64,000 nucleotides of DNA from Candidatus Latescibacterota bacterium (GTDB taxonomy: Bacteria; JAAXHH01), in assembly GCA_022822725.1 (NCBI GenBank), contig JAJEAN010000007.1:1313045-1377044 (forward strand). The letters run 5' to 3'. A program made the translations under genes and the position numbers. This document shows, in pieces, positions 3,814 through 53,566 of the stretch; positions within the stretch are counted from its first letter, which is position 1, and the number at the start of each line of letters is the position of its first letter. The notes below the pieces were generated by a model. That model had not been told where the DNA came from and did not search any database. It saw only the letters and a list, made by a program, of their open reading frames with translations.

Positions 3814-4964
3814 TCGAACAGGCTCAACTGATTCGGGTCTTTCTCGAGAGTTCTTTCCCGGGGCGCCCTTTCCTCGTCGACGTCGCGTTCCAGGAGGAGC
3901 AGTGCATCGGTCACGTCGCCGGCCACTTCCGCTTCCGAACCTTCGTGGACGGGTTTCAGCAGCAGGACTTCCTCCGGTTCGATATCGGGATCGGACAGCA
4001 GCGCCGCGCTGTGGGTGCTAATCAACACCTGCCGGCCGGTGTTCCGCTGCATGCGCTGGATCAGGGCCGCGAGCCGGTTCACGATGCCCGGGTGCAGGCA
4101 GAGCTCCGGTTCCTCGAGGAACAGCAGGGATTCCCCTTCGAGCAGCGCCCACAACATGCCGATGAGCCGCAAAGTCCCGTCGGAGAACTGGTCCTCCCGC
4201 TGGATGCCCGCCCTGGGCCGCCAGTGGGCGTACAGCGCCTGGAGGTGGGGACGTCCGGTCTCCGGGTCCCGAATGAACTCGAGCTGCTCGAGCCGCGGCA
4301 CGGCCGCCTTGAGCACGGCCTCGATCCGGGACAGGCGGGCTTTCCGGGACCGGTCGTGTTCCCGGGCGATGCGGTCCAGGAAGTCCTGCCCGTAGGGGTC
4401 GCCCTCGAGCGTCCGGCCACCGGTCAGGTCCGCGTGGCGGAGCAGCGAAGGAACCAGGTGATGGTAGGTGATGGCCTGGAAGTACCGGGCTATCTCCCTG
4501 AATGTCCGGTTGGTGGTGATCTGTTCGAGGTAGGTCTGGGTAAGCCGTACGATGTCTTCCCGGTCCTCCTCGTTCGGCCGGTCGAGTATGACGGCCTCGT
4601 CTTTGCTCACGCGTTCATAGGTGATCAGCGTATGGCGGTTGCCCCTGGCCTGCTGCTTGAGTCCAAGTTCATAGCGCCAGGTTTCACGCCCGTTCACCGG
4701 GTCGCAGAACCGCACCTCGATGGCGATATCCGGATCCCTGCGCGCGGCGAGGTTCCGGATCTTGGTCATGCCGCCACGGTCCGCGACGGCCTTCTGAAGT
4801 CCCCCGCCCTCGACCTTGGCAATATCCCGGAGAAACCGGAACACGTCCATCAGGTTGGACTTCCCGGACGCATTGGGGCCGACGACGAACTGCCGCTGCT
4901 GCAGATCGACGTCGATCCGCGGGAAATTCCGCCAGTTTCTGACTTTCAGGTGGCGCACATACAT
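3810..4964 (-). CDS. AAA15/RecF-like ATP-binding protein
   Basis: The 384-residue ATPase begins at MYVRHLKVRNWRNF, the usual start of RecF/OLD-type AAA proteins. The open frame runs on upstream, but that part lies inside the neighbouring enolase-family gene and is a shadow. Walker A is GPNASGKS near residue 30. An SDGTLR signature is followed by Walker B with the catalytic Glu (LLFLEEPELCLHPG), then STHSAALL of the D/H-loop region. There is no TOPRIM domain and no TOPRIM gene next door. It is coupled by a 4-base overlap to the PurO-like gene. Possible roles include DNA repair or a defence ATPase; the sequence alone does not decide. Confidence 0.85.
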   Translation of the reverse strand: MYVRHLKVRNWRNFPRIDVDLQQRQFVVGPNASGKSNLMDVFRFLRDIAKVEGGGLQKAVADRGGMTKIRNLAARRDPDIAIEVRFCDPVNGRETWRYELGLKQQARGNRHTLITYERVSKDEAVILDRPNEEDREDIVRLTQTYLEQITTNRTFREIARYFQAITYHHLVPSLLRHADLTGGRTLEGDPYGQDFLDRIAREHDRSRKARLSRIEAVLKAAVPRLEQLEFIRDPETGRPHLQALYAHWRPRAGIQREDQFSDGTLRLIGMLWALLEGESLLFLEEPELCLHPGIVNRLAALIQRMQRNTGRQVLISTHSAALLSDPDIEPEEVLLLKPVHEGSEAEVAGDVTDALLLLERDVDEERAPRERTLEKDPNQLSLFE

Positions 4965-20356: not shown

Positions 20357-21625
20357 ATGCCGAGACGCGCCGTCATCGTCGGCGCGGGGGTGACCGGCCT
20401 CAGCACCGCTTACCATCTCGCCCGCAAGTCGTACGGGAACATCACGGTCGTCGAGAAGGGACGCGTGGGGGACGGCGCCAGCAGCCGGGCCGCCGGGATC
20501 ATCACCGGACTGCTGTGGTCGGAGACCGGCGTCCTGGCCCGCAGGATCAGCCTGGCCCGGTTCAGGGAACTGTCCGGGGAGCTGGATGGTTACCGGTTCC
20601 AGGACGTGGGTTGCCTGAACCTGTTCGACGCGGCGAGCTGGCCGGAGCGTGAACGGCTGCTTCCCCTGTACGACCGCCTGGGCGTTGAATACACCGTCAT
20701 GGACCGGACCGGGATGGCCGCGGCCTGGCCGGACCTGGCGCTGACCGGTGAGCCGGTCGGACTCTTCGATCCCCTGGGCGGTTACAGCGAACCGGAACAC
20801 TACCTCCCGGCACTGGCGGACGGATGCCGCGCCCTGGGCGTGGAGATCAGGGAAGGCTGCATGGTCTCCGACTTCATAGTGGATGCGGGCCGCATGGCGG
20901 GCGTCGTCGCGGGTGGAAAGCGTATCGAAGCCGATGCCGTGGTGAGCACCGTTCACGTATGGACCCTTAAGGTACTGGAATCCATCGGATTGCAATTACC
21001 ATTGAAGTCCTTCGTGCACCAGCGTTACGTCACGGCGCCGCTGCCCACCCCGGTCCGGATCCCGGCCGTCAATGCCAATCCCTACGGGGGATACGTCCGT
21101 CCGCATTACGGCCAGCGTTTGCTGGCGGGCATCGAGAACCCCGACGCGCCGGAGTTTCGCGTGCCCGACCGCACGTTCCAGATGTCGACGATTACCCCGC
21201 CGCCCGGGCTCGGCGAGGTCGCGCGGGAAAACCTGCTCCCACTCGTTCCCCTGGCTGGCCGGGCTGGCCGGGCTGGCCGGGCAGACCATGCGGACCATGT
21301 GGACCATGCAGACCGGGCCCGTTATACCGGCTGGGAAATCGAGAAGGCGGGACTGCTGTCCTTTTCCGGCGACGGCGAACCGGTACTCGGACCCGTCGAG
21401 CGCTTTCCGGGGCTGTACGTGGGGGTTGCCTTTCATTCCGGTGGCTTCGCCTACAACCCGGCGGCCGGCGTTTTACTGGCGGGATGCGTCGCGGACGGAC
21501 GGCCCGAAATCGATATCGGGGATTTCTCGCCGGACCGGTTCGATTCCCGAGATACGGAGTCCTTCAACCGAACCCGGATCACCCACGGAGAATACAGCCT
21601 GCCCGGCCATTCCCGCCGGCACTGA
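20357..21625 (+). CDS. FAD-dependent oxidoreductase, DAO family
   Basis: A 422-residue DAO-family flavoprotein. The N-terminal Rossmann motif is VIVGAGVTGLSTAYHLA, followed by VVEKGRVGDGASSRAAG. The C-terminal closing segment is GLYVGVAFHSGGFAYNPAAG. Relatives include sarcosine oxidase beta, glycine oxidase and D-amino-acid dehydrogenases, which oxidise secondary amines or D-amino acids. Residues of about 300-320 are a low-complexity loop (AGRAGRAGRAD then HADHVDHAD), coded by two blocks of 9-nt tandem repeats between 21255 and 21310. It overlaps no neighbour but sits 3 bases after the bacilliredoxin and 13 before mutY. Confidence 0.85.
   Translation: MPRRAVIVGAGVTGLSTAYHLARKSYGNITVVEKGRVGDGASSRAAGIITGLLWSETGVLARRISLARFRELSGELDGYRFQDVGCLNLFDAASWPERERLLPLYDRLGVEYTVMDRTGMAAAWPDLALTGEPVGLFDPLGGYSEPEHYLPALADGCRALGVEIREGCMVSDFIVDAGRMAGVVAGGKRIEADAVVSTVHVWTLKVLESIGLQLPLKSFVHQRYVTAPLPTPVRIPAVNANPYGGYVRPHYGQRLLAGIENPDAPEFRVPDRTFQMSTITPPPGLGEVARENLLPLVPLAGRAGRAGRADHADHVDHADRARYTGWEIEKAGLLSFSGDGEPVLGPVERFPGLYVGVAFHSGGFAYNPAAGVLLAGCVADGRPEIDIGDFSPDRFDSRDTESFNRTRITHGEYSLPGHSRRH
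21255..21310. repeat. Two adjoining in-frame 9-nt tandem repeats
   Basis: About three GGGCTGGCC-type units at 21255-21281 are followed by three GACCATGNN units at 21284-21310. They code for repeated AGR and DHA/DHV triplets inside the FAD oxidoreductase. Confidence 0.85.
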
Positions 21626-37077: not shown

Positions 37078-37986
37078 ATGGGAACTACCGGGGCATTAAA
37101 TGGCGTTATCCTGATCACGGATTCCGATGACGGCGACTCCCCCGGATGGCATCCCGGCACGGGCATGCTCCTGCCCCTGGCCAACGTGTCCCTGGTCGAA
37201 CGGATCCTGGACCAATACGAACGCGTCGGCGTAAAGGAAACGCTGATCGCGGCCGGCAGCGACACGCGCGAGGTCGTTTCGCTTTGCGGGGACGGCACGC
37301 GCTGGAACATGGCCCTGACCTACCATGATGCGCCGGAAGACCACAGTCCGAATAGGATAATGGAAGAAGTCGCGGCGTTTACGGGCGGAGCGATGTTTCT
37401 CGCTTCCCGCGGTCCCGTACTGCTGCCCGCGGAGGCCTACGCACGGGCCGTTCAAATGCATGATGATCAGGATTTGCGCGGCCTTCCCGGCATTCGTCTG
37501 TGGGAAGGAAACCGGGATGTTTCTGATGACGGGAAAGGAAGTGACGGGGTCTATCTCCTGGCGGCGGAAGACAGGCCGAATACGCTAGACAGGCCGAATG
37601 CGTTAGTTAGGCCGTATGATACAAGCACCCCCGAAGCATACCTGGAATCGAACGAGCGGCTGCTCGAGTCCATCGATCGGGATGTCGCGCCGCCTGAGAT
37701 CATGGCCGACAACTTCTCGTCGCCGAACCTCGTGCTGCGACCTCCCGTAACCATAGATGATACAGCCGAACTCGAGCGATGCCGGATCGGCCCCGGGGTC
37801 TGTATCGGTCCGGGCGTCCGCATCGGGCACGGCGCGGCGATCGAACACAGCGTGATCATGGAAGGCGCGGATATCGGCGATGGCGCCTCGATTTCACGCG
37901 CGGTCATCGGAAGGAACGCCAGCATAGCGAACCGGGCCGTGGTGCACGGCCGGGCGGATCGGGTAACCGTCGTATGTCCCATCTAA
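37078..37986 (+). CDS. Degenerate nucleotidyltransferase with left-handed beta-helix
   Basis: A 302-residue protein built like a sugar-nucleotide pyrophosphorylase fused to a hexapeptide-repeat domain (GlmU-like order). The N-terminal half has the expected MLLPLANVSLVERILDQYERVGVKETLIAAG helix region, but the glycine-rich nucleotide loop before it is replaced by DDGDSPGWHPGTG. Catalysis is therefore doubtful. Residues of about 230-300 show hexapeptide repeats (CRIGPGVCIGPGVRIGHGAAI). A 2.5-copy 18-nt repeat (37570-37614) codes for DRPNTL-DRPNAL in the middle. The end overlaps selB by 13 bases. Confidence 0.7.
   Translation: MGTTGALNGVILITDSDDGDSPGWHPGTGMLLPLANVSLVERILDQYERVGVKETLIAAGSDTREVVSLCGDGTRWNMALTYHDAPEDHSPNRIMEEVAAFTGGAMFLASRGPVLLPAEAYARAVQMHDDQDLRGLPGIRLWEGNRDVSDDGKGSDGVYLLAAEDRPNTLDRPNALVRPYDTSTPEAYLESNERLLESIDRDVAPPEIMADNFSSPNLVLRPPVTIDDTAELERCRIGPGVCIGPGVRIGHGAAIEHSVIMEGADIGDGASISRAVIGRNASIANRAVVHGRADRVTVVCPI
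37570..37614. repeat. In-frame 18-nt tandem repeat
   Basis: Units at 37570-37587 and 37588-37605, with a partial third to 37614, inside the nucleotidyltransferase-like gene. Confidence 0.85.
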
Positions 37987-39959
37987 CCATAGGTACGGCA
38001 GGCCACGTCGACCACGGCAAGAGCGCCCTGGTGGAAGCGCTCACGGGCGTCCATCCCGACCGCCTCAAGGAGGAACGGGACCGGGGCATGACGATCGATC
38101 TCGGGTTCGCGTTCCTGCCCTTAAGCGACGGGCGGGAGATCCCCATCGTCGACGTCCCGGGCCACGAACGGTTCCTCAAGACGATGGTCGCGGGCGTGAG
38201 CGGCATCCACCTCGTCCTCTTCGTCGTGGCGGCCGACGAAGGCGTCATGCCCCAGACCGTCGAACACCTCGGCACGGTGAAATACATGGGGGTCGACGCG
38301 GGTATCGTCGTCCTGACCAAATGCGACCTGGTCGACGAGGAATGGCTGATGCTCGTCGAAGACGACGTGAAATCGCTCATAGCCGGTTCGTTTCTGGAGA
38401 ACGCACCCGTCGTTCGGGTTTCCTCGATCTCGGGCGACGGGATCGATACGTTGAAGGAAGCTATAGAGGACGGGCTGACCGGTCTGTCGGTCGACGGCGA
38501 CGCTGGATACTTCCGCATGCCTATTGACCGGGTGTTCAGCATGAAGGGCTTCGGTACGGTCATCGCCGGCACGGTGCTTTCAGGAAGCCTGGGCGACGAC
38601 ACGGATACCGAACTCCTTCCCGCCCGGACGTCGTTGCGGATCCGGGGCATGCAGACTCATAACGATTCCGTCGATCGCGCCGTAAAGGGACAGCGGGTCG
38701 CGCTGAACGTGTCCAACGTCAAGACGACCGATATACAACGGGGCGACGAACTGTGTACGCCGGGATACCTGGTTCCGACCTTGATGGCCGATGCCCGGCT
38801 GCAATGCCTGGACGCCCTGGAAGAACCTCTGAAGAACCGGCAGCGCGTCCGGCTGCACAAGGGCACGAGCGAGACCATCGGGCGCCTCATCCTCCTCGAC
38901 CGGGACGAACTGGAACCCGGCGAGACCGGATTCGTGCAGCTTCGCCTTGAGAAGTCTATCGTGGCGGAACGAAACGAACGGTTCATCATCCGGGGGTTTT
39001 CCTCCATGCGGCTACTCGGCGGCGGCCGGTTCGTGGAAGTGTATCCACAGAAGAACCGCCGGTTTCGCCAGTCCGTGCTGGACTACCTGGAAGCGGTGAC
39101 CGACGCCCAGCCGGACGTCCTGATCGAGCGGGTCATGCGGCATGCTTACGGCGATCAGCGGCTGAAATCCATGCAGGACCTGGTGCGCGCCACGAACCTG
39201 AAAGGCGACGTCCTGGAGCAGTGCGTAACCCGGCTGGCGGAAAGGGGCGAACTCGTCCGGTTTGGGGACCAGCGGTTGCTGCACCGCCACTGGTTCCTGG
39301 GCCTGAAGGACGAGTTGATCGCCCTGCTTGAAAAGATGCACCGGGTCCAGCGGCTCAAGGATGCGCTGCCCAAGGAAGCCCCCAGGCAGCAGCTCTCCTG
39401 GGCTGCGCCGGATACCGTCTACGACGCACTGCTTAAGGACCTCGACGAGGAGGCCAGGGTCGTGCTGTCCGGCCGGTCGATCCGGCTGGCCGAACACGTC
39501 GTCAAACTGACGGACCAGGAAGAACGCGTCCTCGAGGCGTTCGAGCAGCTTGGCGGCGCCGAACCACCCGCTGTTTTCTCCATGCTCGACCTGGTGCAGG
39601 TCATGGAAGACCGGTCGATCGCCGTGCAGGATTTACCGGTTGATCCGAAAGCAAGCGAGGATATAATCAGGAGCATGGCCGGGTATGCCCTGGAACGGGA
39701 GATCTTCGTCGAGTTCGCGGAACGACAGATCTTGCATCGCCGAGCGCTCGAGTGGGTCAGGAACAACCTCGTGGCCTACCTGAAAAGCCACGGTACCGTC
39801 CGCGCTTCCGAGTTTCGCAGCCATCTCGGCGTCTCCCGTGCCCACGCCACCGCGCTGCTGGACTACTTCTGCGACCTCGGCGTAACCAACCGGGAGTCCG
39901 GAACACACAGGCTCGCGGAGGGGGAGGACGGCGGCGATCCGCCGGGGGACGGCGATTAG
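37974..39959 (+). CDS. selB: Selenocysteine-specific elongation factor SelB
   Basis: A 661-residue translational GTPase. G1 is GTAGHVDHGKS at residues 7-17. The EERDRGMTIDLGFAFLPL switch is typical of SelB. G3 is DVPGHERF and G4 is TKCD. EF-Tu-like domains 2 and 3 follow, and the C-terminal 250 residues are winged-helix repeats that bind SECIS RNA (VRASEFRSHLGVSRAHATALLDYF). It delivers Sec-tRNA to UGA codons. ATG at 37974 overlaps the preceding gene. The tRNA-Sec gene lies 87 bases downstream. No selenoprotein with an in-frame UGA was recognised in this window. Confidence 0.95.
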   Translation: MSHLTIGTAGHVDHGKSALVEALTGVHPDRLKEERDRGMTIDLGFAFLPLSDGREIPIVDVPGHERFLKTMVAGVSGIHLVLFVVAADEGVMPQTVEHLGTVKYMGVDAGIVVLTKCDLVDEEWLMLVEDDVKSLIAGSFLENAPVVRVSSISGDGIDTLKEAIEDGLTGLSVDGDAGYFRMPIDRVFSMKGFGTVIAGTVLSGSLGDDTDTELLPARTSLRIRGMQTHNDSVDRAVKGQRVALNVSNVKTTDIQRGDELCTPGYLVPTLMADARLQCLDALEEPLKNRQRVRLHKGTSETIGRLILLDRDELEPGETGFVQLRLEKSIVAERNERFIIRGFSSMRLLGGGRFVEVYPQKNRRFRQSVLDYLEAVTDAQPDVLIERVMRHAYGDQRLKSMQDLVRATNLKGDVLEQCVTRLAERGELVRFGDQRLLHRHWFLGLKDELIALLEKMHRVQRLKDALPKEAPRQQLSWAAPDTVYDALLKDLDEEARVVLSGRSIRLAEHVVKLTDQEERVLEAFEQLGGAEPPAVFSMLDLVQVMEDRSIAVQDLPVDPKASEDIIRSMAGYALEREIFVEFAERQILHRRALEWVRNNLVAYLKSHGTVRASEFRSHLGVSRAHATALLDYFCDLGVTNRESGTHRLAEGEDGGDPPGDGD

Positions 39960-40046
39960 CCTTCAGTTGTAGCGACGATCAGGCGCGATTTTCGCCTACC
40001 GTCCCGGTGTATCCGCGGGCTGAAGAGTAAACAGGAGCAGAATTCA

Positions 40047-40143
40047 GGGGAGTGTATGGGTTGCTGGTGCGCCTCACGGACTTCAAATCCGATGGCGGGC
40101 CCTAAACAGGTCCGTGGTGGGTTCGATTCCCACACGCTCCCCC
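40047..40143 (+). tRNA. selC: tRNA-Sec (anticodon TCA)
   Basis: The long acceptor stem pairs GGGGAGTG (40047-40054) with CGCTCCCC (40135-40142), with one G-U pair. The anticodon loop CTTCAAA is like that of E. coli selC, with the TCA anticodon. The long variable arm pairs CGGGCC with GGTCCG around CTAAACA. The T arm is GTGGG-TTCGATT-CCCAC. CCA is not fully encoded with a normal discriminator. It directly follows selB, as in many selenocysteine loci. D-arm pairing is less clear by eye. Confidence 0.92.
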
Positions 40144-40622
40144 CAGAAACCGTACAGCGGCTGACGATCGCCTGACGGTCCTCCTCCACGTATGACGGCC
40201 AGCGACCCTGACGCCCCCGCTAAGTGGAATTGGGCATCCGGCAAGCTGAGGACCGGCCGCATCCGCCTATTCCGCCGCCTATCCCGCCGCCTCATTGCCC
40301 ACCGACACATTTACTTCCGTCATGGGTATCCACCGCGAACCCGAACGCTCGTGCCAACAGCCATCCAGGTGTTATCCCGGTGTAATTCCAGTTGTTGTTC
40401 CAGGTGCTATTCCAGGTGTTATTCCCGTTGATTTCTAAAGGTGACAACATGCGAGGTAATAACAATATTATGATTTTTATATGATGATCTATTCTAATCG
40501 TGTAAATTCAATGTGATCATCGAATCAGGATCCAGATGCTCGATTATGGCCGGCCGCGCCGATGCCGGTTCAGCCGGTCGGCAGAGCGACTTCGGAGACC
40601 GTGAACTCAGAGGAGCAGATCG
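40144..40622. other. Intergenic region with 12-nt tandem repeat and AT-rich leader
   Basis: The gap between selC and the sensor kinase. 40365-40430 holds about six degenerate 12-nt units of the type CCAGGTGTTATT. 40450-40530 is strongly AT-rich and probably contains the kinase promoter. An open frame at 40192 covering the repeat looks like chance. Confidence 0.7.
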
Positions 40623-42992: not shown

Positions 42993-43166
42993 TTGACCCC
43001 GCAGCCCGGTCAACCGCCGGCACGATCAGCCTATCCGGAAACGCAGCCGGGAATGCCCATGGAAATCCTGGGCATGTACCTCTTCATCGCCAGCGAACTC
43101 ATCATCTTCATCACGCTGCTGTTCATGTGTATGGGACTAATGTATATGTACTTAGTTATTTCTTGA
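42993..43166 (+). pseudogene. 5' remnant of cytochrome oxidase subunit III gene
   Basis: TTG at 42993 with AAGGAG six bases upstream opens a frame whose codons up to about 43126 match the start of the intact cox3 at 50596 (GMPMEILGMYLFIASELI and FITLLF). The frame then enters AT-rich foreign sequence and stops at 43166, giving a 57-residue stub with one partial membrane helix. This is the original 5' end of cox3, cut by the insertion. Ribosome-site spacing to the kinase gene shows that it belonged to that transcript. Confidence 0.88.
43053..43093 (+). repeat. Left copy of 41-bp direct repeat (island boundary)
   Basis: These 41 bases are identical to 50656-50696. They code for MPMEILGMYLFIA in cox3. 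The similarity continues to 43126 with six mismatches in 33 bases, mainly at third codon positions or nearly synonymous. Confidence 0.95.
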
Positions 43167-43432
43167 ATTATTGGAGAAATGTTATTACATACAACTATTC
43201 CAATGTTTAGTATCAGAACTTTTACTTAAATCCATAGTTGTAGTCGACAGACATTCATCCTCGAAGTTCATATAGACAGTTTAGCTTATTGGGATCTGGG
43301 CTTCACATACCATGTCGAGTACTTGAGCTTACTCATTACATTGAGCCTGTTTTACAATTAAACAGACAAGGTCCGTGACCTAGGTATACATACGTAACTT
43401 TCTTAATTCGTCACTTGCAGAAAGTAAAGGCT
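43167..43432. promoter_or_regulatory. Leader of the six-gene operon
   Basis: About 265 AT-rich non-coding bases between the cox3 stub and the first ParB-like gene. A TACAAT box near 43353 could be a -10 element, but no convincing -35 was found. The operon promoter should lie here. Confidence 0.4.
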
Positions 43433-44467
43433 ATGACAGAAAACTATACAAAGTTGAACGTCGATGCGATTTCATTCGACACAGATAATCCGAGAATTAA
43501 GATCGCTCTAGAAAAATACGGCGAACATCTTAATGCAGAACGTATCCACTTTGCACTAAGATCGGCATCAGATGGGGAAAAGCGGACTTCCTCATTCACA
43601 AACCTGAGAGATTCCATTCGTACTAGTGGTCGAGCGATTGCTCCTATATCTGTGGTTATAGACGGTGAAGGTTACAAATGCATTGATGGTAACACGCGTC
43701 TTGCCATTTATAAGCAGTTTTTAAAAGAACAGGTTGACGGAAATTGGGCGGAAATCAATGCTATTGTACTCGACAATGCCAACCAAAGAGACATTGAAGC
43801 AGTTAGAGTTTCTGCGCATCTAGTTGGAGCAAGGGAATGGCCAGCCTACGAAAAGGCTAGGTACTTACATTATCTCAGGAACCAAGAGTTAATGGATTAC
43901 ACTGAGATGATTGCTCTGTGTGGAGGCAACAAAACAGAGATAGAACGCCAGATCGATGCATTTCATGATATGAATGAATTTTACCGTGATGTTGTTGATG
44001 ACTCTTCGTTTCATATCGACAGGTTTAGTGGTTTTGTTGAACTACAAAAACCGCAGATCAAAAAGGCGATATTCGAAGCAGGATTAGATCTGAAAGACTT
44101 TGGGGAATGGATTCGAGATGGGCAGATTTACCGCTTAGCAGACGTTAGACAACTGCCCAAGGTTCTTCAAGATGTTGAAGCAAGAAATGTGTTTTTGGAA
44201 GGCGGCCCAAATTCAATTCAGGATGCTATAAAACTACTGGACCAGAAATCTCAAGAAGAAAGCGGTACGACGGAAAGTGAGTTAACTCTCGATGCTGCAT
44301 CTATTTTTCAGCTTGCGAGAGTACTGTCGCGGCGAATACAAGATTTACCCTATTCTGAGGTACGTACACTCAAGAACAAAGAAAGCGATCAAAGCTTGGA
44401 TCGTATACGAGTTCTCGAAGAATTAGCAGGACACCTACAGAATCTACTTGACGATGTCACAGAGTGA
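43433..44467 (+). CDS. ParB/Srx-fold protein, first copy
   Basis: A 344-residue protein with a ParB-like N-terminal domain: DNPR at 18-21, SIRTSGRAIAPISVV, and the CTP/phosphate-loop motif as DGNTRLAIYKQF at 85-96. A helical region around the PAYEKARYLHYL segment (about 125-185) resembles the ParB helix-turn-helix part. There is no classical centromere-binding partner or ParA gene. Chromosomal ParB proteins are CTP-dependent DNA clamps; ParB-fold enzymes also occur in DNA-modification and phage loci. ATG at 43433 is chosen (AAAGG just upstream); TTG at 43415 is possible. It overlaps the next gene by 14 bases. Confidence 0.8.
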   Translation: MTENYTKLNVDAISFDTDNPRIKIALEKYGEHLNAERIHFALRSASDGEKRTSSFTNLRDSIRTSGRAIAPISVVIDGEGYKCIDGNTRLAIYKQFLKEQVDGNWAEINAIVLDNANQRDIEAVRVSAHLVGAREWPAYEKARYLHYLRNQELMDYTEMIALCGGNKTEIERQIDAFHDMNEFYRDVVDDSSFHIDRFSGFVELQKPQIKKAIFEAGLDLKDFGEWIRDGQIYRLADVRQLPKVLQDVEARNVFLEGGPNSIQDAIKLLDQKSQEESGTTESELTLDAASIFQLARVLSRRIQDLPYSEVRTLKNKESDQSLDRIRVLEELAGHLQNLLDDVTE

Positions 44468-44915
44468 GGAACACAAAAAGCTAGTGTCTCTGCTAGCGGA
44501 AAACCTAGAATCTCGTTTTCCAGGAATTCAGCTTATCATCGATATATTGGCAGTACCCGGTGATGAAGTTCCACCGATAATTGGTGCCTATCGTCCGGAT
44601 CTTTATGCCGAGATTACTCCAGATAGTCCTGTTATTGTCGGTGAGGCCAAAACCGATACCGATCTCCAGAATAGGCATACGTATAATCAATTATCAACCT
44701 TTGTAACCTATCTCGAGTCCAGGGGAAATGGTCTCTTTGTCTTGGCAATTTCCGGATTAATAGCAGACCAGGCAAAAACATTCATGAGGTTTGTTTATCA
44801 GGCGTTGGGTATTAAAAGCACTAGCATGGTCCTTTTCGATGGATTGGATTTCTGGCAACTTGACCCGGTTGGAACACGATTATGGCATTTGTATTTAGAA
44901 AGCCACCCAAGTTAG
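44454..44915 (+). CDS. PD-(D/E)XK nuclease-like protein
   Basis: A 153-residue protein with the outline of a small restriction-like nuclease fold: YRPDLYAE (D49), then VIVGEAKT giving the E64-x-K66 pair after a beta strand, followed by a helix (HTYNQLSTFVTYLE) and LFVLAISG. A glutamate near the N-terminus (SEEHKKLVSLLAENLE) fits the first helix of the fold. The exact metal-ligand set needs structural comparison. The start overlaps the upstream ParB-like gene by 14 bases and its end overlaps the helicase gene by 34, so it is tightly coupled to both. Confidence 0.6.
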   Translation: MSQSEEHKKLVSLLAENLESRFPGIQLIIDILAVPGDEVPPIIGAYRPDLYAEITPDSPVIVGEAKTDTDLQNRHTYNQLSTFVTYLESRGNGLFVLAISGLIADQAKTFMRFVYQALGIKSTSMVLFDGLDFWQLDPVGTRLWHLYLESHPS

Positions 44916-46351
44916 TTACCAAACACGAAGCGTATCCTTATCAGCTTGATGCAGTCCGAGCAGTGAAGACTCTAAAATACGCCGCGATTTTTCACGAGCA
45001 GGGCCTCGGCAAAACAAAGATTGCCATTGATCTAATGTTGTATTGGTTAGTCGAGGATATCGTGGAAACCGTTTTTGTTGTAACTAAGAAAACCCTAGTA
45101 CAAAACTGGGTCGAAGAATTAGCGGTGCATTCCTACGTTTCACCTAGAATCCTGTCAGGCAACCGTCGCGAAAACAGCATTGCCTTAAACTCGCCAGTTA
45201 TGGTTTATGTATTAAACTACGAAGTAGTATCGACAAACCTTGATCTGATTTCTGATTTCCTAAATACTTGTAGGGTTGGAGTAGTCTTGGATGAAAGTCA
45301 GAAAATCAAAAACCCTGACTCGAAACTGTCCAAGGACTTTCATTATCTAGCTAACAAGTTCGCACGCCGAGTTATCATGACCGGTACGCCTGTAGCGAAT
45401 CGCCCTTATGACATTTGGTCTCAGATCAAGTTTCTAGATGACGGTAGTTCACTTGGAGTGTCGTATTCCGACTTCAAAGATGCCCTAGATCTACCGCAAG
45501 ATGGAAACTCAATACAGGATTACACTCGCCGATTAAACAATGTGATGGATCAGGTAAAGCACTTCTCAGTTCGTGAAACGAAAAAGACGGCTGGGCTTGT
45601 ATTACCTGACAAAACTATCCTGACGCACTTCGCAGAGATGGAACCACATCAAGCTTCAATATATGCAGAATACAGAGACTTAATGGCTCATGAACTACAA
45701 ACAGCAGATGGCCGTACATTGGATACCGCTGATGATATATTGAAGCGATTGCTTAGGCTAGTTCAATGCGCTTCAAACCCTAGACTATTGGACGCAAATT
45801 ACAGTGAGTTACCTGGCAAGTTCAATGTTCTTACGGGATTATTGGATAAGATACTAGATAAGGGCAATAAAGCGTTGATCTGGACAGGATTTGTCGGAAA
45901 TGTAGAATGGCTTTGGACCAAACTTGGACGATTCTCACCACTGAAAGTTCATGGTAACATGTCGATTTTGGGTCGCAATGAATCCATAAGAAAGTTCAAA
46001 GCTGACGGAAAATGTAAACTGCTGTTGGCGACACCGGGATCAGCAAAGGAAGGATTAACGTTAACAGTAGCTAACCATGCCATATTCTACGACCGAAGTT
46101 TTAGCCTTGATGACTACCTTCAGGCACAGGACCGTATCCACAGGATATCCCAATCCGAAGAGTGTTACGTACACAATCTTATTACGAAGGATACCGTTGA
46201 TGAATGGGTAGATATCTTACTCAACGTTAAATACCAAGCTGCCCAATTGACTCAGGGAGATATATCGCGTGAGGAATTTGATGCTGAATACATGTCAAAC
46301 TTATCGACAGCACTTCATGAATCTCTTTCTCCCGGTGGTGTTACTAGATAG
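44882..46351 (+). CDS. SNF2-family DNA helicase/translocase
   Basis: A 489-residue superfamily 2 ATPase. A Q-like start (YPYQLDAV) precedes Walker A GLGKT (41-45). Motif II is DESQ (137-140) where DEAH or DEGH is usual. Motif III is MTGTPVANRPYD. The C-terminal RecA lobe contains LLLATPGSAKEGLTLTVANHAIFYDRS and the arginine-finger motif QAQDRIHRISQ. The pattern is that of small SNF2 translocases such as those in restriction and defence loci. No extra nuclease domain is fused; the neighbouring PD-(D/E)XK-like protein could supply it. Confidence 0.9.
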   Translation: MAFVFRKPPKLVTKHEAYPYQLDAVRAVKTLKYAAIFHEQGLGKTKIAIDLMLYWLVEDIVETVFVVTKKTLVQNWVEELAVHSYVSPRILSGNRRENSIALNSPVMVYVLNYEVVSTNLDLISDFLNTCRVGVVLDESQKIKNPDSKLSKDFHYLANKFARRVIMTGTPVANRPYDIWSQIKFLDDGSSLGVSYSDFKDALDLPQDGNSIQDYTRRLNNVMDQVKHFSVRETKKTAGLVLPDKTILTHFAEMEPHQASIYAEYRDLMAHELQTADGRTLDTADDILKRLLRLVQCASNPRLLDANYSELPGKFNVLTGLLDKILDKGNKALIWTGFVGNVEWLWTKLGRFSPLKVHGNMSILGRNESIRKFKADGKCKLLLATPGSAKEGLTLTVANHAIFYDRSFSLDDYLQAQDRIHRISQSEECYVHNLITKDTVDEWVDILLNVKYQAAQLTQGDISREEFDAEYMSNLSTALHESLSPGGVTR

Positions 46352-46372
46352 GGACCCTAAGGAGCAAAAAAG

Positions 46373-47368
46373 ATGGAGATGAAACTCCTCGGTGAGACAA
46401 TTCCACTTGAGAATGATTTTGTTGAAATTTATGATCTAAAGTTCCTCAAAGAAAATCCCAGAGTCTATGCGTGTACACATGGAATACTGGGGTTTGACCA
46501 GATGATAGAAGAGGAGCAACAGGAACTTATTTATGAGAAGTTGATACAAGAACCAAGTGTGAAGAACCTAATACCAGAAGTAAAACGACATGGTGGATTA
46601 ATTGAACCTATCCTAATCCGACATGATACGAAGGAAGTCATTGAGGGTAACTCTCGTTTAGCGGTTTACCGTAGATTCAAACAGGAAAGTGCAGATGGAG
46701 AGTGGGACCTTATTCCTTGTGAAATCGTTAGTAATCTTACAGACGACCAGCAGGCAGCCTATTTGAATCAGGTCCACATAAAAGGCAAGACAAAATGGTC
46801 CGCGTATGAAAAAGCGAATTTCGCCTACGTACGACGTGAAAGGGGTTGGAGCCGCAAGAAAATAGCAGAATTGTTTGGTGAGTCGGAGCCAACGATAAGC
46901 ACGAATATCAACGTAATCAATCTGATGAAACAGAACGACGATAACGTCCGTTCTCATTTTAACTACTATGATGTTGTCGTTCGAAAACCAGAGATCTCCA
47001 ACGCAATAAAAAACGAACCTCGTGTTCGCGATTTCTTGCTAAAGAAGATCAAGAATCAGGGTTCAGATGAGAACGACAGTGAATTCACTGCTCAAGAACT
47101 AAGAAAAAAACTTCCAGTAGTCTTGGGGAAACCGAAAGTCCTAAAAAAGTACCTCGACGGTGCTATTGATCTAGACCAAGGCTATCAATCCGCAAAAATT
47201 AGTCAGGTGGAGGAACGAGTTAAACAAGCAAAAAACCTTCTTGACGAGGTTTTAAAGTCGGATGTAGACCATTTAGAACAGGGTGAGTTCAATGCTTTCA
47301 AGCATGCTGTCAGAAAACTGTCAAAAGAGGTAGATCGTATTAAGAAGATTGTTGACCAAAATGGCTGA
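46373..47368 (+). CDS. ParB/Srx-fold protein, second copy
   Basis: A 331-residue protein, a diverged relative of the first ParB-like protein. It has ENPR at 27-30, GGLIEPILIRHDTKEVI, EGNSRLAVYRRF at 91-102 and WSAYEKANFAYVRRERGWSR, followed by a helix-turn-helix-like KKIAELFGESEPTISTNINV. The C-terminal 90 residues are charged and helical, probably coiled coil. AAGGAG lies eight bases before the ATG. Two ParB-fold proteins of different length in one operon suggest different DNA-loading roles or a heteromer. The end overlaps the radical SAM gene. Confidence 0.8.
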   Translation: MEMKLLGETIPLENDFVEIYDLKFLKENPRVYACTHGILGFDQMIEEEQQELIYEKLIQEPSVKNLIPEVKRHGGLIEPILIRHDTKEVIEGNSRLAVYRRFKQESADGEWDLIPCEIVSNLTDDQQAAYLNQVHIKGKTKWSAYEKANFAYVRRERGWSRKKIAELFGESEPTISTNINVINLMKQNDDNVRSHFNYYDVVVRKPEISNAIKNEPRVRDFLLKKIKNQGSDENDSEFTAQELRKKLPVVLGKPKVLKKYLDGAIDLDQGYQSAKISQVEERVKQAKNLLDEVLKSDVDHLEQGEFNAFKHAVRKLSKEVDRIKKIVDQNG

Positions 47369-49007
47369 AAAACAAGTACTACTTATAGAACCTGGCTATC
47401 CCAATAAGTACCCGCCTCTTGGTTTGATGAAACTAGCGGCCTACCATGGCCCAAATGGAAGGGGAGACCAAGTTCGTTTTGTTAAAGGTGTAGACCGGTC
47501 TGTCTTGTTAGAACCTTGGGACCGAGTATATGTAACGACTTTATTCAGTTTTGAGTGGAAACGGACGGCCAAAGCTATCGATTATGCTATCCAAGCTGCG
47601 GGTAACCAGCCAGAAAGAGTCTTTGTCGGTGGCATAGCTGCTTCATTAATGCACGACCAATTTGTGAATGAACCAAACTGGGCAGGGGTTCGGTTTGTTA
47701 AGGGTCTTCTTGATGGTCCGCCAGCTCTAGCGCTTTCGTTGTCCGAACAAGATGGCGACTTCGGTGCAGAAGACCTAACAGGGTCACCGATTGAAGAATT
47801 AGTTCCAGACTACGGTATTCTCGAACAGGTTGACTATTCTTACCCCGTAAATGACGCTTACTTCGGATACGCTTCGCGCGGTTGTGTTCGGAGTTGTGCG
47901 TTCTGTGGTGTTCCAAAATTGGAAGGCGCCCAACGTGAGATGCCACCACTTCAAAGACTGATTAGTGGTGTAAACAAATCATACGGACCCAAGAAAGACT
48001 TGGTGTTGATGGATAACAACATTACAGCATCAGCTCGTTACCAGGAAGTGATAGCTGAAATTCGCGATCTTGGTTTCGTCCCGGGTGCGAAACTGCAACG
48101 CGACGGAAAGACCGCTCTCAAACGCCGTGTTGACTTCAATCAGGGAGTGGACGCTCGAATCCTTGTGAAATCGCCAATGTTTATGAGGGAGATGGCGACG
48201 ATATGTATCAGTCCACTTCGCATCGCGTTTGACCATATCGGAGTCCGTAAAGTCTACGAGAAAGCTATACGTATGGCAGCCGACCACAATATCACATCGC
48301 TGTCGAACTATATGCTCTACAACTTCATGGACACGCCGACAGACTTATATGCACGAATGCAACTAAACATATCACTGAATGAAGAACTAGGAATTCGCAT
48401 ATGGTCGTTTCCGATGCGTTATCAGCCTGTTACTTTGAAGGACCGATCGCATATTGGGAAAAACTGGAATCGGTATTTACTCCGGTCTTTCCAAATCATG
48501 CTCCAGGCAACTCATGGAATAGTAAGTGGAAATCCATCTTTCTTTCTACGCGCTTATGGAGAGGACAGTCAGGAGTTTGAGTGGTTGTTAAGCCTTCCCC
48601 ACGCCTTCATCTTCCACCGGGAGTACTACGAGAACGGGGCTGGACGACCACTGCGCGACGAATATGAAGTTCTGCGTGGTCGTCTCTCAAAAAGTCAAGA
48701 GGAACAGTTATTGCATCTACTCTCAGGCCCTGCGGAATTACAAGGACTTCGGAGGCAGTACTTCCGAGGTCTAATTGAGGATTCCAATATTGACCCTAAA
48801 GTTAGGGAGATAATCCGGTTCCATATGCTGGATACGAATAGCATCGATAAACCGACTGATCAGAAGATTTCGACACTTTTTAAAGATCTCAATCCAGACC
48901 CAGCCATGCCCAATCAGGACGAATTTGTCGAGGACGCTGGCTTGTTCGATCACGAGTATCACAATGCAAGGCAATCTCAGCAAAATCTTAAGAAGGCAGT
49001 GAGCTAG
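47361..49007 (+). CDS. Radical SAM enzyme, B12-binding-like architecture
   Basis: A 548-residue protein. Residues of about 5-165 resemble the Rossmann-like N-terminus of B12-type radical SAM enzymes (VLLIEPGYPNKYPPLGLMKLAAY), but the cobalamin DxHxxG motif is not seen. The radical SAM core has the 4Fe-4S motif C175-x3-C179-x2-C182 in ASRGCVRSCAFC, then LVLMDNNITAS. The last 200 residues have no domain that I recognise. The substrate could be nucleic acid, protein or a small molecule. The ATG at 47361 overlaps the stop of the second ParB-like gene by 8 bases. Confidence 0.85.
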   Translation: MAEKQVLLIEPGYPNKYPPLGLMKLAAYHGPNGRGDQVRFVKGVDRSVLLEPWDRVYVTTLFSFEWKRTAKAIDYAIQAAGNQPERVFVGGIAASLMHDQFVNEPNWAGVRFVKGLLDGPPALALSLSEQDGDFGAEDLTGSPIEELVPDYGILEQVDYSYPVNDAYFGYASRGCVRSCAFCGVPKLEGAQREMPPLQRLISGVNKSYGPKKDLVLMDNNITASARYQEVIAEIRDLGFVPGAKLQRDGKTALKRRVDFNQGVDARILVKSPMFMREMATICISPLRIAFDHIGVRKVYEKAIRMAADHNITSLSNYMLYNFMDTPTDLYARMQLNISLNEELGIRIWSFPMRYQPVTLKDRSHIGKNWNRYLLRSFQIMLQATHGIVSGNPSFFLRAYGEDSQEFEWLLSLPHAFIFHREYYENGAGRPLRDEYEVLRGRLSKSQEEQLLHLLSGPAELQGLRRQYFRGLIEDSNIDPKVREIIRFHMLDTNSIDKPTDQKISTLFKDLNPDPAMPNQDEFVEDAGLFDHEYHNARQSQQNLKKAVS

Positions 49008-49026
49008 GGTTGCTTGATAGAGTTAC

Positions 49027-50502
49027 ATGTCCCGATTAGAAATACCTGAATCACTTGTTGGCGGAGATGTCATTTCGCTCATCACCGCTGGTATGTATAT
49101 CAACCCTCTAGCTATCTACCGCGAGTATATTCAGAATGCCGTAGATGCCATAGCAACTATACCCTATCAAAGTGGAAGAGTAGAAATCGAGATCGACCCG
49201 GTTGGTTTGCGACTATGTATTCGTGACAATGGACCAGGATTATCACCAGAAATGGCACGACGGGCCTTAGTCCCTATCGCTAGAAGTGAGAAGAGACGAG
49301 GAACTGATCGTGGATTCCGCGGGATTGGTCGGCTCGCGGGCCTTGCTTTCGCACAAACCGTAACCTTTGTAACCAAGTCCAAAGACGACGATCATGTCAC
49401 ACGTATCACGTGGGACGATCCAACCCTTCAGCGCAATCTCAAAGAACATTCACGGACGGACAAGGCGATCCTAGAATCTGTTCGTATTGAAACGTTACCT
49501 CGTGAAGAATGGCCAGAACACTTCTTTGAAGTCCACGTGACTGGAATTGCACGTCATGCCGCTGGGCTTGTTCTAAACAAAGAGGTTGTAAAAGCTTATA
49601 TTGGCGAAGTTTGTCCAGTCCCCATTAGTTCGATATTTCCATTTAAAACAGAAATCGAAGGTGTACTGGGTGACGATGGAGCATCATTTGTACTCGATGT
49701 TTTCATTAACGGTGAGACGGAACCGGTCACACGTCGATTTGATAGCGAAGTACCGCTTCAGGGAGATAGGAAAGTCCGCTTTACTGAATGTGAACGAGTT
49801 GATATACCCGTCCTCGACGGAAATGCTAACGCCGCGGTGGGTTGGATCGCACATTCATCGTATAGTGGTATGATACTACAAGACGCAGGCGTCCGGGGGT
49901 TCCGAGCGCGTGTCGGAAATATCCAAATCGGAGACGAGGCAATCTTTGAACATCTTTTCCCTGAGGACCGATTCAATCGTTGGTGTATAGGCGAGTTACA
50001 TATAGTAGACTCACGTATCCTACCTAACAGTCGGCGCGACTATTTTGAACCGGGTCCGCACGTAAGGAATCTGGAAAATCAGCTCAGGTCGGTGTTTCGA
50101 GGTATAGCTAATCGGTGTCGCAAGGCATCAACGGTGCGCAACGCCGAACGCAGATACATTTTAGCGATGTGCGAAATGGAAGAAGCCTACGAACTTGCAG
50201 CATCGGGTTATCTACCAATTGAAAACACAAGGTCGTTAGTTCAAAAAACACTAAATCAGATCGAAGATATCAGAAATCGGATAGACATTTTGGACGGCGA
50301 TACGAAAATCGATCTCGAGAAAATGAAGTCTCTCGAGATAAAGTTGCTCAACTTTAACAGGAATCCGGTTCGTCCGACAGTCAGAGGTATCCCACGTTCG
50401 GAGCGAATGACTTATCGTAAGGTGTTTCAAGCGATTGCAGAGGTGTCGGATTCACCAAGAACTGCAAGAGCGTTAATCGAAGCGGTCTTGGAGCGAACGT
50501 AG
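49027..50502 (+). CDS. GHKL/Hsp90-type ATPase
   Basis: A 491-residue protein with a complete Bergerat ATP-binding fold: N box EYIQNAVDA (33-41), G1 DNGPG (67-71), and the glycine lid GFRGIGRLAGL (96-106). The order and the Hsp90-like start (DVISLITAGMYINPLAIYREY) match Hsp90/MORC-like HATPase_c_3 proteins, not histidine kinases. The middle part is beta-rich and the C-terminal 130 residues are helical. Such ATPases act as ATP-gated clamps on DNA or protein. It is the last gene of the six-gene operon, 19 bases after the radical SAM gene. Confidence 0.88.
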   Translation: MSRLEIPESLVGGDVISLITAGMYINPLAIYREYIQNAVDAIATIPYQSGRVEIEIDPVGLRLCIRDNGPGLSPEMARRALVPIARSEKRRGTDRGFRGIGRLAGLAFAQTVTFVTKSKDDDHVTRITWDDPTLQRNLKEHSRTDKAILESVRIETLPREEWPEHFFEVHVTGIARHAAGLVLNKEVVKAYIGEVCPVPISSIFPFKTEIEGVLGDDGASFVLDVFINGETEPVTRRFDSEVPLQGDRKVRFTECERVDIPVLDGNANAAVGWIAHSSYSGMILQDAGVRGFRARVGNIQIGDEAIFEHLFPEDRFNRWCIGELHIVDSRILPNSRRDYFEPGPHVRNLENQLRSVFRGIANRCRKASTVRNAERRYILAMCEMEEAYELAASGYLPIENTRSLVQKTLNQIEDIRNRIDILDGDTKIDLEKMKSLEIKLLNFNRNPVRPTVRGIPRSERMTYRKVFQAIAEVSDSPRTARALIEAVLERT

Positions 50503-50595
50503 TAACTTTCCAATTGCATACTTCCCGTTAGTCCAAATCTAAGCTCGATTCAGTTATTCGAACCAACAATAGCCGTTTGTGAGAAATCACCTTCA

Positions 50596-51204
50596 GTGAC
50601 TAATGTATCAGAACTACCGATCGGTAGCAAAAACACACCTCCACAAAACAAAGGCATGCCCATGGAAATCCTGGGCATGTACCTCTTCATCGCCAGTGAA
50701 CTCATTGTATTCATTACGCTGCTGTTTATTCTATTCTGGTTGCGATCGGGTCTCGTGGCGGACTGGCCCCCGCCAGACCAGCCTCGCCTGCCCATCGAGA
50801 TTACGGGCATAAACACTGTGTTTCTGCTGGTGAGCGGCTACACCATGCACCGGGCGTACCGGGCCGTGAAACAGAATATATCCCGCCTGCTGACGCGTTG
50901 GCTGATGATCACGTGCGTGCTGGGCGTCGTCTTCCTCACGGTGCAGGGGTTCGAATGGATCCGGCTGATCCGCTTCGGGTTGAGTATGACCTCGAGCCTG
51001 TACGGCGCCATGTTCTATACAATCATCGGGCTCCATGCCGTCCACGTGTTCGTAACCGTCCTTGCACTGCTCTACCTCTGGGTCCAGTCCTCCGCCGGAG
51101 TCTATACCGACGAAAAGCACACCGGCGTGGTGCTGGGCTACATGTTCTGGCTCTTCGTCGTCCTCATCTGGCCCATCCTCTACGTACTGGTCTACCTGGT
51201 TTGA
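50596..51204 (+). CDS. Cytochrome c oxidase subunit III-like protein, re-started
   Basis: A 202-residue five-helix subunit III of the heme-copper oxidase family (CyoC/NorE-like short form), with EILGMYLFIASELIVFITLLF, VQGFEWIRLI and the GLHAVHVFVTVLALLYLW segment. It supports the proton-pumping terminal oxidase in the inner membrane. The first ~20 codons are AT-rich island DNA that replace the host's own leader, and the rest is host-like. The frame starts at GTG 50596; ATG 50662 with AAAGG seven bases before is a good alternative. No other oxidase subunit gene is nearby. The original 5' end is left at 42993. Confidence 0.88.
   Translation: MTNVSELPIGSKNTPPQNKGMPMEILGMYLFIASELIVFITLLFILFWLRSGLVADWPPPDQPRLPIEITGINTVFLLVSGYTMHRAYRAVKQNISRLLTRWLMITCVLGVVFLTVQGFEWIRLIRFGLSMTSSLYGAMFYTIIGLHAVHVFVTVLALLYLWVQSSAGVYTDEKHTGVVLGYMFWLFVVLIWPILYVLVYLV
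50656..50696 (+). repeat. Right copy of 41-bp direct repeat (island boundary)
   Basis: Identical to 43053-43093 and lies inside the intact cox3. Bases 50697-50729 continue the similarity with six mismatches that make this copy more AT-rich. The cox3 5' end here is thus probably donor-derived up to about 50735. Confidence 0.95.
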
Positions 51205-51379
51205 CAAACCTGATTGATTGAGAATGGATCCGCTGAACTACATGAATGAACTACATTATAATAGCTATTCTCGCATTGTCAGCTTATTGGAAACATCATC
51301 GCAGGCAGTTCGAACATACGAACGTAATGTGTGATAAACATATCTTGGATACTACAGAAACACTTAAGCTCGCTCGCCA
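51205..51379. other. AT-rich gap after cox3
   Basis: Non-coding by eye; a sharp drop in GC begins at about 51225. No repeat matching the 41-bp boundary was found. Confidence 0.5.
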
Positions 51380-52063
51380 TCAGTAAGCAGTTACACCAGT
51401 CTTTGAACCAATCCAATCAAGCATAGCGCAGAATGCCGGACACTGCATACGATTGTTTTCGTCGTACAGTACTTCCAATATGTCTGTGTTACTTAGAATG
51501 GCTTGGCAATCTGTGATTTCTCGATAGGATCGTTTCAATTTCGCCATAAACAGCTGTTGGACGATTTTTTTGGGCGGCTTGTTTTGATTCTGATCCTCAG
51601 GTGGTACACGCCAGTTTTTGGGCAAACTACGTAGCCCAAGACGTTCCTGAAGATGACTATGAGCTGCCAATATCAACATCTCTAAGTCGAATTTCATGGC
51701 ACTCGCATAGAACCGACTCAAACAACTTTCGACTTCTTTTGATCTGACCCTCTTTTTGACTTCCTGCCTCACCAACCGAATTTGTAGGTTTTGTAAGTCC
51801 AGTAGATTTCTGTGGCTAAATTCAGTATTCCTAAAGTTCTTGTTCGGATACAGATCAGGTAGTCCGATGACGAGATCTTTGTTATCGTTTTGCAACTTTT
51901 CGGTTGTGCGTACGCCAACTTTTCTAAGATATTTTGGCTTGTTCTCTAGTATTACGAACCGTAAACCCCAACCATGCTCTTCAAGCTTCTTTTTCCAATC
52001 AGACCATAGGGCGGAAAGTGCAACTGTATCTGAGCGCCCTTCTACTAGAAACCAAACTTTCAC
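51380..52063 (-). CDS. DUF4276-type TOPRIM-like protein
   Basis: A 227-residue protein opening with VWFLVEGRSDTVAL, the TOPRIM glutamate motif, and GLPDLYPNK in the place of the acidic metal-binding loop, as in DUF4276/RloB-like proteins. The helical C-terminal part has RFYASAMKFDLEMLILA. TOPRIM proteins coded next to AAA15 ATPases act as toxic nucleases in several phage-defence systems (OLD, Gabija and PARIS types). It overlaps the ATPase gene by 4 bases and is AT-rich like it. Catalytic competence cannot be judged because the second acidic pair is not standard. Confidence 0.75.
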   Translation of the reverse strand: MKVWFLVEGRSDTVALSALWSDWKKKLEEHGWGLRFVILENKPKYLRKVGVRTTEKLQNDNKDLVIGLPDLYPNKNFRNTEFSHRNLLDLQNLQIRLVRQEVKKRVRSKEVESCLSRFYASAMKFDLEMLILAAHSHLQERLGLRSLPKNWRVPPEDQNQNKPPKKIVQQLFMAKLKRSYREITDCQAILSNTDILEVLYDENNRMQCPAFCAMLDWIGSKTGVTAY

Positions 52064-53352
52064 ACACCTGCCTCCAGTTCACCCGAACGATGAAGATCTC
52101 CTAAGGTGTCTCCTCGAACTTCATCAAGCATTTGTACAAGGGTACTACGGCTTGAGGGTCGATACCAACCAGCTCTGGCGGCATCTGAGCCCCTTGCGAT
52201 TACTGCGACATCATCCAATTTGAAATGATCGAGCAGGTCCGGGCTATGCGTCGTCACGAGCACCTGTGTACGTTCTGCTGCAACGGTGATCATTTCAGCA
52301 ACTAAAGGTAGTAACCCGGGATGTAAACCCAGTTCCGGTTCATCAATCGCTACCAATGGTGGAGGTATTGGATTTAGAAGCGCTGTGGCCAAACACAGGA
52401 ATCGTAACATACCGTCTGAAAGCTCCCATAGATAAACGGAACGTGACATGCCCTTCTCTCGTATCCCTACAACTACCTGCGGAGGAGTACCATGGGTTGT
52501 GTCACAATGGATTTCCTCAAACATGGGATACGCTCCACGAAGAAACTCGCGCAACTCCTTTGCCGATGCACGAAAGTCATACCGGTTAAATACCTCATGT
52601 AGAACCGTGCCGAGGTTATCACCATTGGAAGACAAGGTAGTAACCGGTTTGATCTCAGCAGCTTGCGTTCGTAGTGACGAAGATCGGGTAACGTCAAATC
52701 CCGGATAGAACGTCATACCCGCCAGCAGAAATCGAGCCGCAGCGGGAACTGGAAACTCATTGAAGAACCGAATCTGTGACAGCAGCAATGAGGCTTCCTG
52801 TTGAGCGGAAATCGCACCCGTCATTTTTGCTTCAGCAACGCCCGAGTTCCGACTGTCCATAGGCACCGGCTGTTCGGCATCAAATGGTATCAATTTACTT
52901 TGTACTCTGTCAAATATCTGTCTTCTGTACGGTGTTGCTTCAAGGTGTTTGAGGGATTCACTGTAGCCTTGCAACGGCCGCTGGTTCTTTAGTGCTTCAT
53001 ACTGCGCATGCATCAGACCCTGGGTATCGGCTGCTAGAACTACTTCGTAAACCAGTGGAATGTCTTTTTTTAACGGGAAATCACTCCAAAAAACAGTCGT
53101 TGGCTTATGAAAACCAACCTTCCACGACAACTGACGGTTATCACTACCTGCGGTGAGCAAAGAAGCAGCCCCCCAATGCCATCCGATTGCTGTGTTTATT
53201 GGAAACTCACAACACTCACGCACAAGCCGAAGGCAATCAATCAGTGAACTCTTGCCACTGGCATTAGCACCGATTACCACTGTCAATGGCTTGAGATCCG
53301 CTTCGAAATCATTGAGTAATCTATAGCCCTTAATCTCGATATCTGAGATCAT
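52060..53352 (-). CDS. AAA15/RecF-like ATPase of the TOPRIM pair
   Basis: A 430-residue ATPase. An N-terminal IKGYRLLNDFEADL leads to Walker A GANASGKSS near residue 30. Signature LSDGMLRFL is followed by Walker B with Glu (LVAIDEPELGLHPG) and VTTHSPDLLDHF. The family is the same as that of the GC-rich ATPase at 3810, but the sequences are only distantly alike. It is the first gene of a two-gene minus-strand operon with the TOPRIM-like protein. Base composition marks it as acquired. Confidence 0.88.
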   Translation of the reverse strand: MISDIEIKGYRLLNDFEADLKPLTVVIGANASGKSSLIDCLRLVRECCEFPINTAIGWHWGAASLLTAGSDNRQLSWKVGFHKPTTVFWSDFPLKKDIPLVYEVVLAADTQGLMHAQYEALKNQRPLQGYSESLKHLEATPYRRQIFDRVQSKLIPFDAEQPVPMDSRNSGVAEAKMTGAISAQQEASLLLSQIRFFNEFPVPAAARFLLAGMTFYPGFDVTRSSSLRTQAAEIKPVTTLSSNGDNLGTVLHEVFNRYDFRASAKELREFLRGAYPMFEEIHCDTTHGTPPQVVVGIREKGMSRSVYLWELSDGMLRFLCLATALLNPIPPPLVAIDEPELGLHPGLLPLVAEMITVAAERTQVLVTTHSPDLLDHFKLDDVAVIARGSDAARAGWYRPSSRSTLVQMLDEVRGDTLGDLHRSGELEAGV

Positions 53353-53566
53353 GACATTGATGCCTCTTGTTAACTTAAAGGGTTTTGAACTCGATCCTAC
53401 TATGCTCCTACATCCAAACGACGACTACAAATAGTAATTAAGATGAGTGACTCGCAAGATAATCATTAACTAGTTGAATTTCAATTCCTAAGCGATAGGC
53501 CATGTAGGTAAAGTGACTTATAGACTTTAACCAAAATTATCAGATCGATCGACACCGAGCGTGACG
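53353..53566. other. AT-rich intergenic end of second block
   Basis: Non-coding by eye. Holds the probable promoter of the ATPase-TOPRIM pair (minus strand) and the return to GC-rich DNA at about 53560. No boundary repeat seen. Confidence 0.5.

Follow-up and report, generated by a model that had tools for sequence, protein, structure and literature searches.

The window analysed here is a stretch of 64,000 nucleotides from contig C9 of the 3.8-Mb genome of a Candidatus Latescibacterota bacterium, and it carries a six-gene operon (plus strand, 43433-50502) in which two ParB-like proteins, a small nuclease and a SNF2 translocase accompany a radical S-adenosylmethionine enzyme (rSAM) and a GHKL ATPase. 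According to our analysis the rSAM-GHKL pair is a constant core, and the ParB-nuclease-SNF2-ParB set is one of at least five modules that are exchanged around it; linkage of the genes, exchange of the modules and mobility of the whole are direct observations. We read it as a mobile, modular, restriction-type defence system in which rSAM would replace the DNA methylase as the marker of self, and we give this reading, taken as a whole, an even chance; a role in defence, taken by itself, is probable.

All six open reading frames are present on the plus strand as the sequence-only reading of this DNA had described them, and the motifs of the families it had named are conserved in relatives. The best starts are 43433, 44457, 44882, 46373, 47361 and 49027. 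The first, second and fourth junctions are overlaps of 11, 34 and 8 nt, and the third and fifth are gaps of 21 and 19 nt, so that the spacing is as tight as had been claimed for four of the five junctions, and the count rises to all five. The first gene, ParB_a (43433-44467), and the fourth, ParB_b (46373-47368), encode ParB/Srx-like proteins with the motifs [D/E]GNTR and EGNSR, respectively; G-N-x-R is invariant in both family alignments, in line with the (D/E)G-x-x-R signature of ParB/Srx proteins, and the two are homologous to each other (hhalign E-value 1e-40). ParB_b has a possible helix-turn-helix and matches the ParB-like family phrog_1033 (2e-11), and ParB_a matches ParB/Noc structures weakly, at 0.005 only. 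Between them lie nuc (44457-44915), a small PD-(D/E)XK nuclease with H6, D29, P47-D48, E63-A-K65 and Q78, and the SNF2 translocase (44882-46351; Pfam SNF2-rel_dom 8e-29, Helicase_C 1e-15), in which every helicase motif is kept in the aligned relatives. Among 36 relatives of nuc at 21-49% identity D29 and Q78 are invariant, and P47-D48 and E63-A64-K65 nearly so; a sequence search of solved structures gave no identification of this protein. The rSAM gene (47361-49007) encodes the CxxxCxxC motif at residues 175, 179 and 182 behind a Rossmann-like N-terminal domain. The last gene (49027-50502) encodes a GHKL ATPase (Pfam HATPase_c_3 2e-12) with a transducer domain and a helical C-terminus, an Hsp90/SMCHD1-like module; its N, G1 and G2 box residues are invariant in the alignment, and its AlphaFold2 model (predicted local distance difference test, pLDDT, of 88) matches TRAP1/Hsp90 and SMCHD1 over ATPase and transducer in Foldseek.

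A scan of 84,980 genomes with rSAM gave 218 relatives, 80 of which, 54-74% identical, were kept. Their hosts belong to Nitrospirales, Binatota, Chloroflexota, Acidobacteriota, Gemmatimonadota, Verrucomicrobiota, Poribacteria and Proteobacteria, complete relatives being present in culturable strains of Rhizobium, Mesorhizobium, Novosphingobium and Sphingopyxis, and rSAM was also found on 12 plasmids and several viral contigs, with conjugative plasmids among the carriers. Across many phyla rSAM is followed by GHKL within 300 nt (93 of the 94 loci with enough sequence). The module ParB_a-nuc-SNF2-ParB_b stands in about 50 loci, 34 of them in exactly the order of the window and the others downstream or inverted, and a chance arrangement is ruled out because the same arrangement is kept in so many loci.

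Homologues unlinked to each other had been set as the refuting test of the sequence-only reading, a test that it withstood, the linkage that we found being near-perfect. Under independent ASCERTAINMENT, viral contigs searched with ParB_a have rSAM beside the module in all eight loci, one of which (L145) has a divergent rSAM and no GHKL. Among 72,556 plasmids ParB_a occurs in seven, every one of them within the 12 that have a close rSAM homologue; GHKL is found in exactly the same plasmids as rSAM (12/12), and a PIN protein in 13, of which 12 are the rSAM plasmids. Thus in our samples the ParB_a module is never seen without rSAM, and rSAM-GHKL does occur without the module, an asymmetry that the logic of restriction versus modification would predict. 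The system is rare, since 397 genomes of one order contained a single ParB_a copy, a sample that has no power as a test, and a wide SNF2 scan was uninformative, since past some nine close loci the matches are phage helicases of a generic kind, about 30% identical. At L145 (8631-16567) the divergent rSAM stands in front of the module, and behind the module come an S24 peptidase-like protein and a 514-aa protein.

The suggestion that the six genes make up one system stands in so far as they are a conserved mobile set, and falls in so far as they were taken as indivisible: a fixed six-gene unit was rejected, because modules exchange between loci. In place of the four-gene module we find NurA-HerA-GHKL before rSAM in ten loci (NurA Pfam 1.5e-6), DUF87/HerA-GHKL in four, PIN_8-GHKL in 25, and a DndB-HEPN fusion; a short protein of the DndB/DpdB family lies directly upstream of rSAM in many loci. 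A tree of 95 rSAM proteins implies 27-34 changes of partner module, and at least 16 changes of the ParB/SNF2 module on well-supported branches alone; the count is not driven by the long branches L140, L240, L242 and L019, whose placement is uncertain. At L235/L236, one viral-contig locus, the gene order is LmuB - GHKL - UvrD-like - unknown - DrmA - DrmB - NERD-helicase - rSAM - GHKL - Mrr nuclease, with matches to DrmA (3e-161), DrmB (1e-52) and Mrr_cat and with Lamassu genes alongside. DISARM normally has a methylase where rSAM-GHKL stands in this locus, which is possibly an rSAM variant of DISARM. Since these other partners (NurA, HerA/DUF87, PIN_8, DndB plus HEPN, and DrmAB with NERD-helicase and Mrr) are also translocase-nuclease sets, we count them in favour of a restriction-type defence. 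The DndB-HEPN gene of L002 may be Saro_3948, whose organism we take to be Novosphingobium aromaticivorans. A survey of HEPN proteins lists Saro_3948 as a ParB-HEPN fusion and does not mention rSAM (PMC3710099).

The window copy itself lies in a 7.6-kb island (43127-50652) that is missing in congeners. Acquisition by transfer had been proposed from base composition, and the drop is real: the GC (guanine plus cytosine) content falls from about 60-65% in the window to about 42-48% between 43.1 and 50.6 kb. Direct proof comes from the insertion site, because congeners have an empty, uninterrupted cox3 (heme-copper oxidase subunit III). The island has severed a 5' fragment of cox3 (42993-43126, plus strand, in frame from TTG 42993), which in congeners L121-L129 joins the rest of the gene without interruption, and the rSAM gene is missing from all 11 genomes of the same genus that were searched. 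Two 77-bp direct repeats on the plus strand, 91% identical, bound the island at 43050-43126 and 50653-50729; the repeat is the start of the cox3 gene and is present as a single copy in congeners, where the flanks of the island are contiguous. Both copies share the identical stretch ATGCCCATGGAAATCCTGGGCAT, in which two inverted 7-bp arms, ATGCCCA and TGGGCAT, enclose a 9-bp spacer, and this ATGCCCA-9 nt-TGGGCAT arrangement is a possible recombinase or recombination core. Elements inserting into genes are known to restore the host reading frame. Here a 20-residue N-terminus borne by the island (GTG 50596; 50596-50655) is fused to the host gene, so that the frame is re-established and a restored cox3 of 202 aa (50596-51204, plus strand) aligns with those of congeners. 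No integrase or recombinase was found in the island or nearby, and a recombinase must act from elsewhere; the host genome has three tyrosine recombinases in total, the nearest about 74 kb from the island. The cox3 insertion, the bounding repeats and the lack of a recombinase inside go beyond what the sequence-only reading had noticed. In a scan for promoters and terminators, promoter-like sites were no more numerous than in shuffles.

Islands of this kind invite another explanation, that the genes serve no defence at all and maintain mobile elements through partition, repair or recombination, for which ParB, SNF2 and HerA-NurA would be suitable tools on plasmids and islands. The presence of the system on conjugative plasmids, in viral contigs and near integrases or resolvases agrees with it, as does end resection by HerA-NurA in archaea (PMC12977600). 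We nevertheless hold it to be improbable, as the window copy is an integrated island devoid of replication, transfer and recombinase genes, and both the exchange with DrmAB-Mrr and the Lamassu gene neighbourhood are typical of defence.

Two relatives are bounded in ways of their own. In L028 (Dehalococcoidia) a 110-bp direct repeat of 90% identity (9090-9199 and 17569-17677) closely bounds the same six genes in a different order, with no recombinase, and in L029 the six-gene system lies between two large serine recombinase genes in direct orientation (2705-4282 and 20513-21586), whose DNA is 83% identical. The cox3 locus of the window is an insertion hot spot: a second insertion, missing in most congeners, directly follows cox3 (51205-53546), and congener L129 has a 71%-identical relative there. 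It encodes on the minus strand an OLD-like AAA ATPase (52060-53352) and a DUF4276/TOPRIM-like protein (51380-52063), which resemble the HEC-01A and AriA defence models. As to the host, its phylum counts only 16 genomes in the collection. Most of the closest relatives of rSAM (65-74%) are encoded in metagenome-assembled genomes whose names we recognise as presumably those of sponge-associated bacteria, and the host is likely a sponge symbiont. It probably reads UGA as selenocysteine, judging by a gene for a selB-like elongation factor with a tRNA-Sec gene behind it (37779-40145).

The sequence-only reading knew of no named system with this set of genes, and our searches agree: the six genes fit none of the system models of PADLOC, NCBIfam or Pfam, and the rSAM-GHKL core is not described in the literature searched, which comprised open-licence papers, so that a description elsewhere is possible. 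Closest in composition are the MORC/paraMORC restriction-modification systems, which likewise unite, in one laterally transferred operon, a GHKL protein, a superfamily II helicase (SWI2/SNF2 included) and a restriction-fold nuclease (PMC2292703); the island has the nuclease and the superfamily II translocase in one operon and a GHKL protein with a transducer domain. Those systems, however, have DNA methylases, and profile scans found no DNA methyltransferase family among the six proteins, which include rSAM instead and two ParB-like proteins. Likeness to Dpd, which places 7-deazaguanine in DNA, is seen in the window SNF2 (whose helicase part resembles DpdE at 6e-36) and in the DpdB-like protein beside rSAM in relatives (5e-15), but the six proteins have no match to DpdA or the deazaguanine pathway, and the genes are far fewer. 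The Dnd/Ssp phosphorothioation systems (PMC10853773) share with the relatives a DndB-family protein and, in a few loci, a DndH-like HerA partner (3e-47 in L060), whereas the island has no match to DndA, DndC, DndD or DndE, and rSAM is unrelated to DndC. DISARM is joined to rSAM-GHKL by DrmA and DrmB in the single locus L235/L236, yet the window lacks DrmA, DrmB, DrmC and the methylase, and only its SNF2 resembles the helicase part of DrmD. The same SNF2 is similar to the helicase part of ZorD (4e-46), but no ZorA or ZorB match was obtained, and nuclease and SNF2 are separate genes, unlike in Zorya. Membership in Dpd, Dnd, DISARM or Zorya was rejected, the defining genes being missing.

The rSAM protein is weak in Pfam (0.015) and matches the 'radical SAM' family phrog_9298 (2e-37). 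Its AlphaFold2 model (pLDDT 89.8) shows a Rossmann-like N-terminal domain, the rSAM barrel and an extra large helical C-terminus, and finds MgmA first in Foldseek (2.8e-11), then TsrM, MiaB, OxsB and RimO. Like the B12-type enzymes MgmA, TsrM and OxsB it has, in the predicted structure, the Rossmann-like domain before the barrel; unlike them, it ends in the helical C-terminus, and the identity is only 13-15%. It may be a B12-type enzyme that would bind cobalamin, and the lack of invariant cysteines beyond CxxxCxxC is consistent with this. Distant rSAM proteins of phages (about 24-31% identity) have genes of DNA methylases or PAPS-reductase in their vicinity in some phages, which is suggestive only. 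At L010, L115 and L116, in phages and on a Bosea plasmid, distant relatives of rSAM are found close to genes for a PAPS-reductase/DndC-like protein, a DNA methylase or thymidylate synthase.

It could be argued that rSAM modifies tRNA or rRNA, or acts as a maturase on a partner protein such as GHKL or ParB, with modules that act on RNA or in arrested cells; we find this unlikely, if the more credible of the alternatives. The nearest folds do include enzymes of tRNA and ribosomal protein (MiaB/RimO) and of protein (MgmA), and the PIN_8 and HEPN partners are of RNase type. The majority of the partner modules, however, are machines for double-stranded DNA (SNF2, HerA-NurA, DrmAB, Mrr). A MiaB/RimO-like methylthiotransferase is excluded, because such an enzyme needs three more conserved cysteines, N-terminal ones for a second 4Fe-4S cluster, and across 74 relatives of rSAM, all with CxxxCxxC, only C175, C179 and C182 are invariant.

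Among rSAM enzymes the viperins are known to be antiviral, and this precedent suits a somewhat less likely explanation, in which rSAM would make a small molecule, for example a signal or a modified nucleotide, by which phage polymerases are stopped or the linked nuclease modules activated, with GHKL as receptor or switch. The variety of effectors around one core (PIN, HEPN, nuclease-helicase) fits such a signal-plus-effector design. Identity with viperin (pVip) was nevertheless rejected: rSAM matches no PADLOC model, viperin models included, the fold match reaches only E ~0.09 and is confined to the rSAM barrel, and both the Rossmann-like N-terminus and the large helical C-terminus are unlike viperin.

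The restriction-type reading, with rSAM in the place of the methylase, has its precedents. Operons of GHKL, superfamily II helicase, restriction-fold nuclease and methylase are predicted restriction-modification systems (PMC2292703), and in Dpd the ParB-like DpdB is the ATPase for inserting the modified base (PMC12839542). We propose that rSAM, aided by GHKL as a clamp driven by ATP and, in some relatives, also by the DndB/DpdB-type protein, would put a chemical mark on host DNA, for instance by radical C-methylation, and would thereby do what the methylase does in restriction-modification. Inspection of the DNA would fall to the SNF2 motor and the ParB-like proteins, and the small nuclease would cut wherever the mark is missing. 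The island, for its part, would move by insertion at cox3 and supply a new 5' end with which the gene is rebuilt. For DNA marking by rSAM we put the chance slightly below even.

Several points weigh against this scheme. The marking step is not backed by a methylase, a transglycosylase or any other enzyme known to modify DNA, and the N-terminal domain of rSAM resembles enzymes for protein, tRNA and small molecules, none of which acts on DNA. Among the alternative partners, PIN and HEPN proteins tend to be RNases and would suit effectors that act on RNA or by abortive infection, and in L145 the module is present without GHKL. The sequence-only reading had looked to a conserved gene order beside other defence genes; the order is there, in the 34 loci counted above, but known defence genes make up only about one tenth of 122 scanned flank proteins, a share taken without formal control.

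The marks by which restriction systems recognise self DNA have so far been, to our knowledge, methyl groups, backbone sulfur or deazaguanine bases. We tentatively suggest a new restriction class, in which rSAM together with GHKL writes a novel DNA mark, a base or carbon modification made by radical chemistry, and exchangeable translocase-nuclease modules read its absence. If DNA marking by rSAM holds, the system would be categorically new; the constant rSAM-GHKL pair would then add a new marking chemistry, and one marking core would serve many nucleases.

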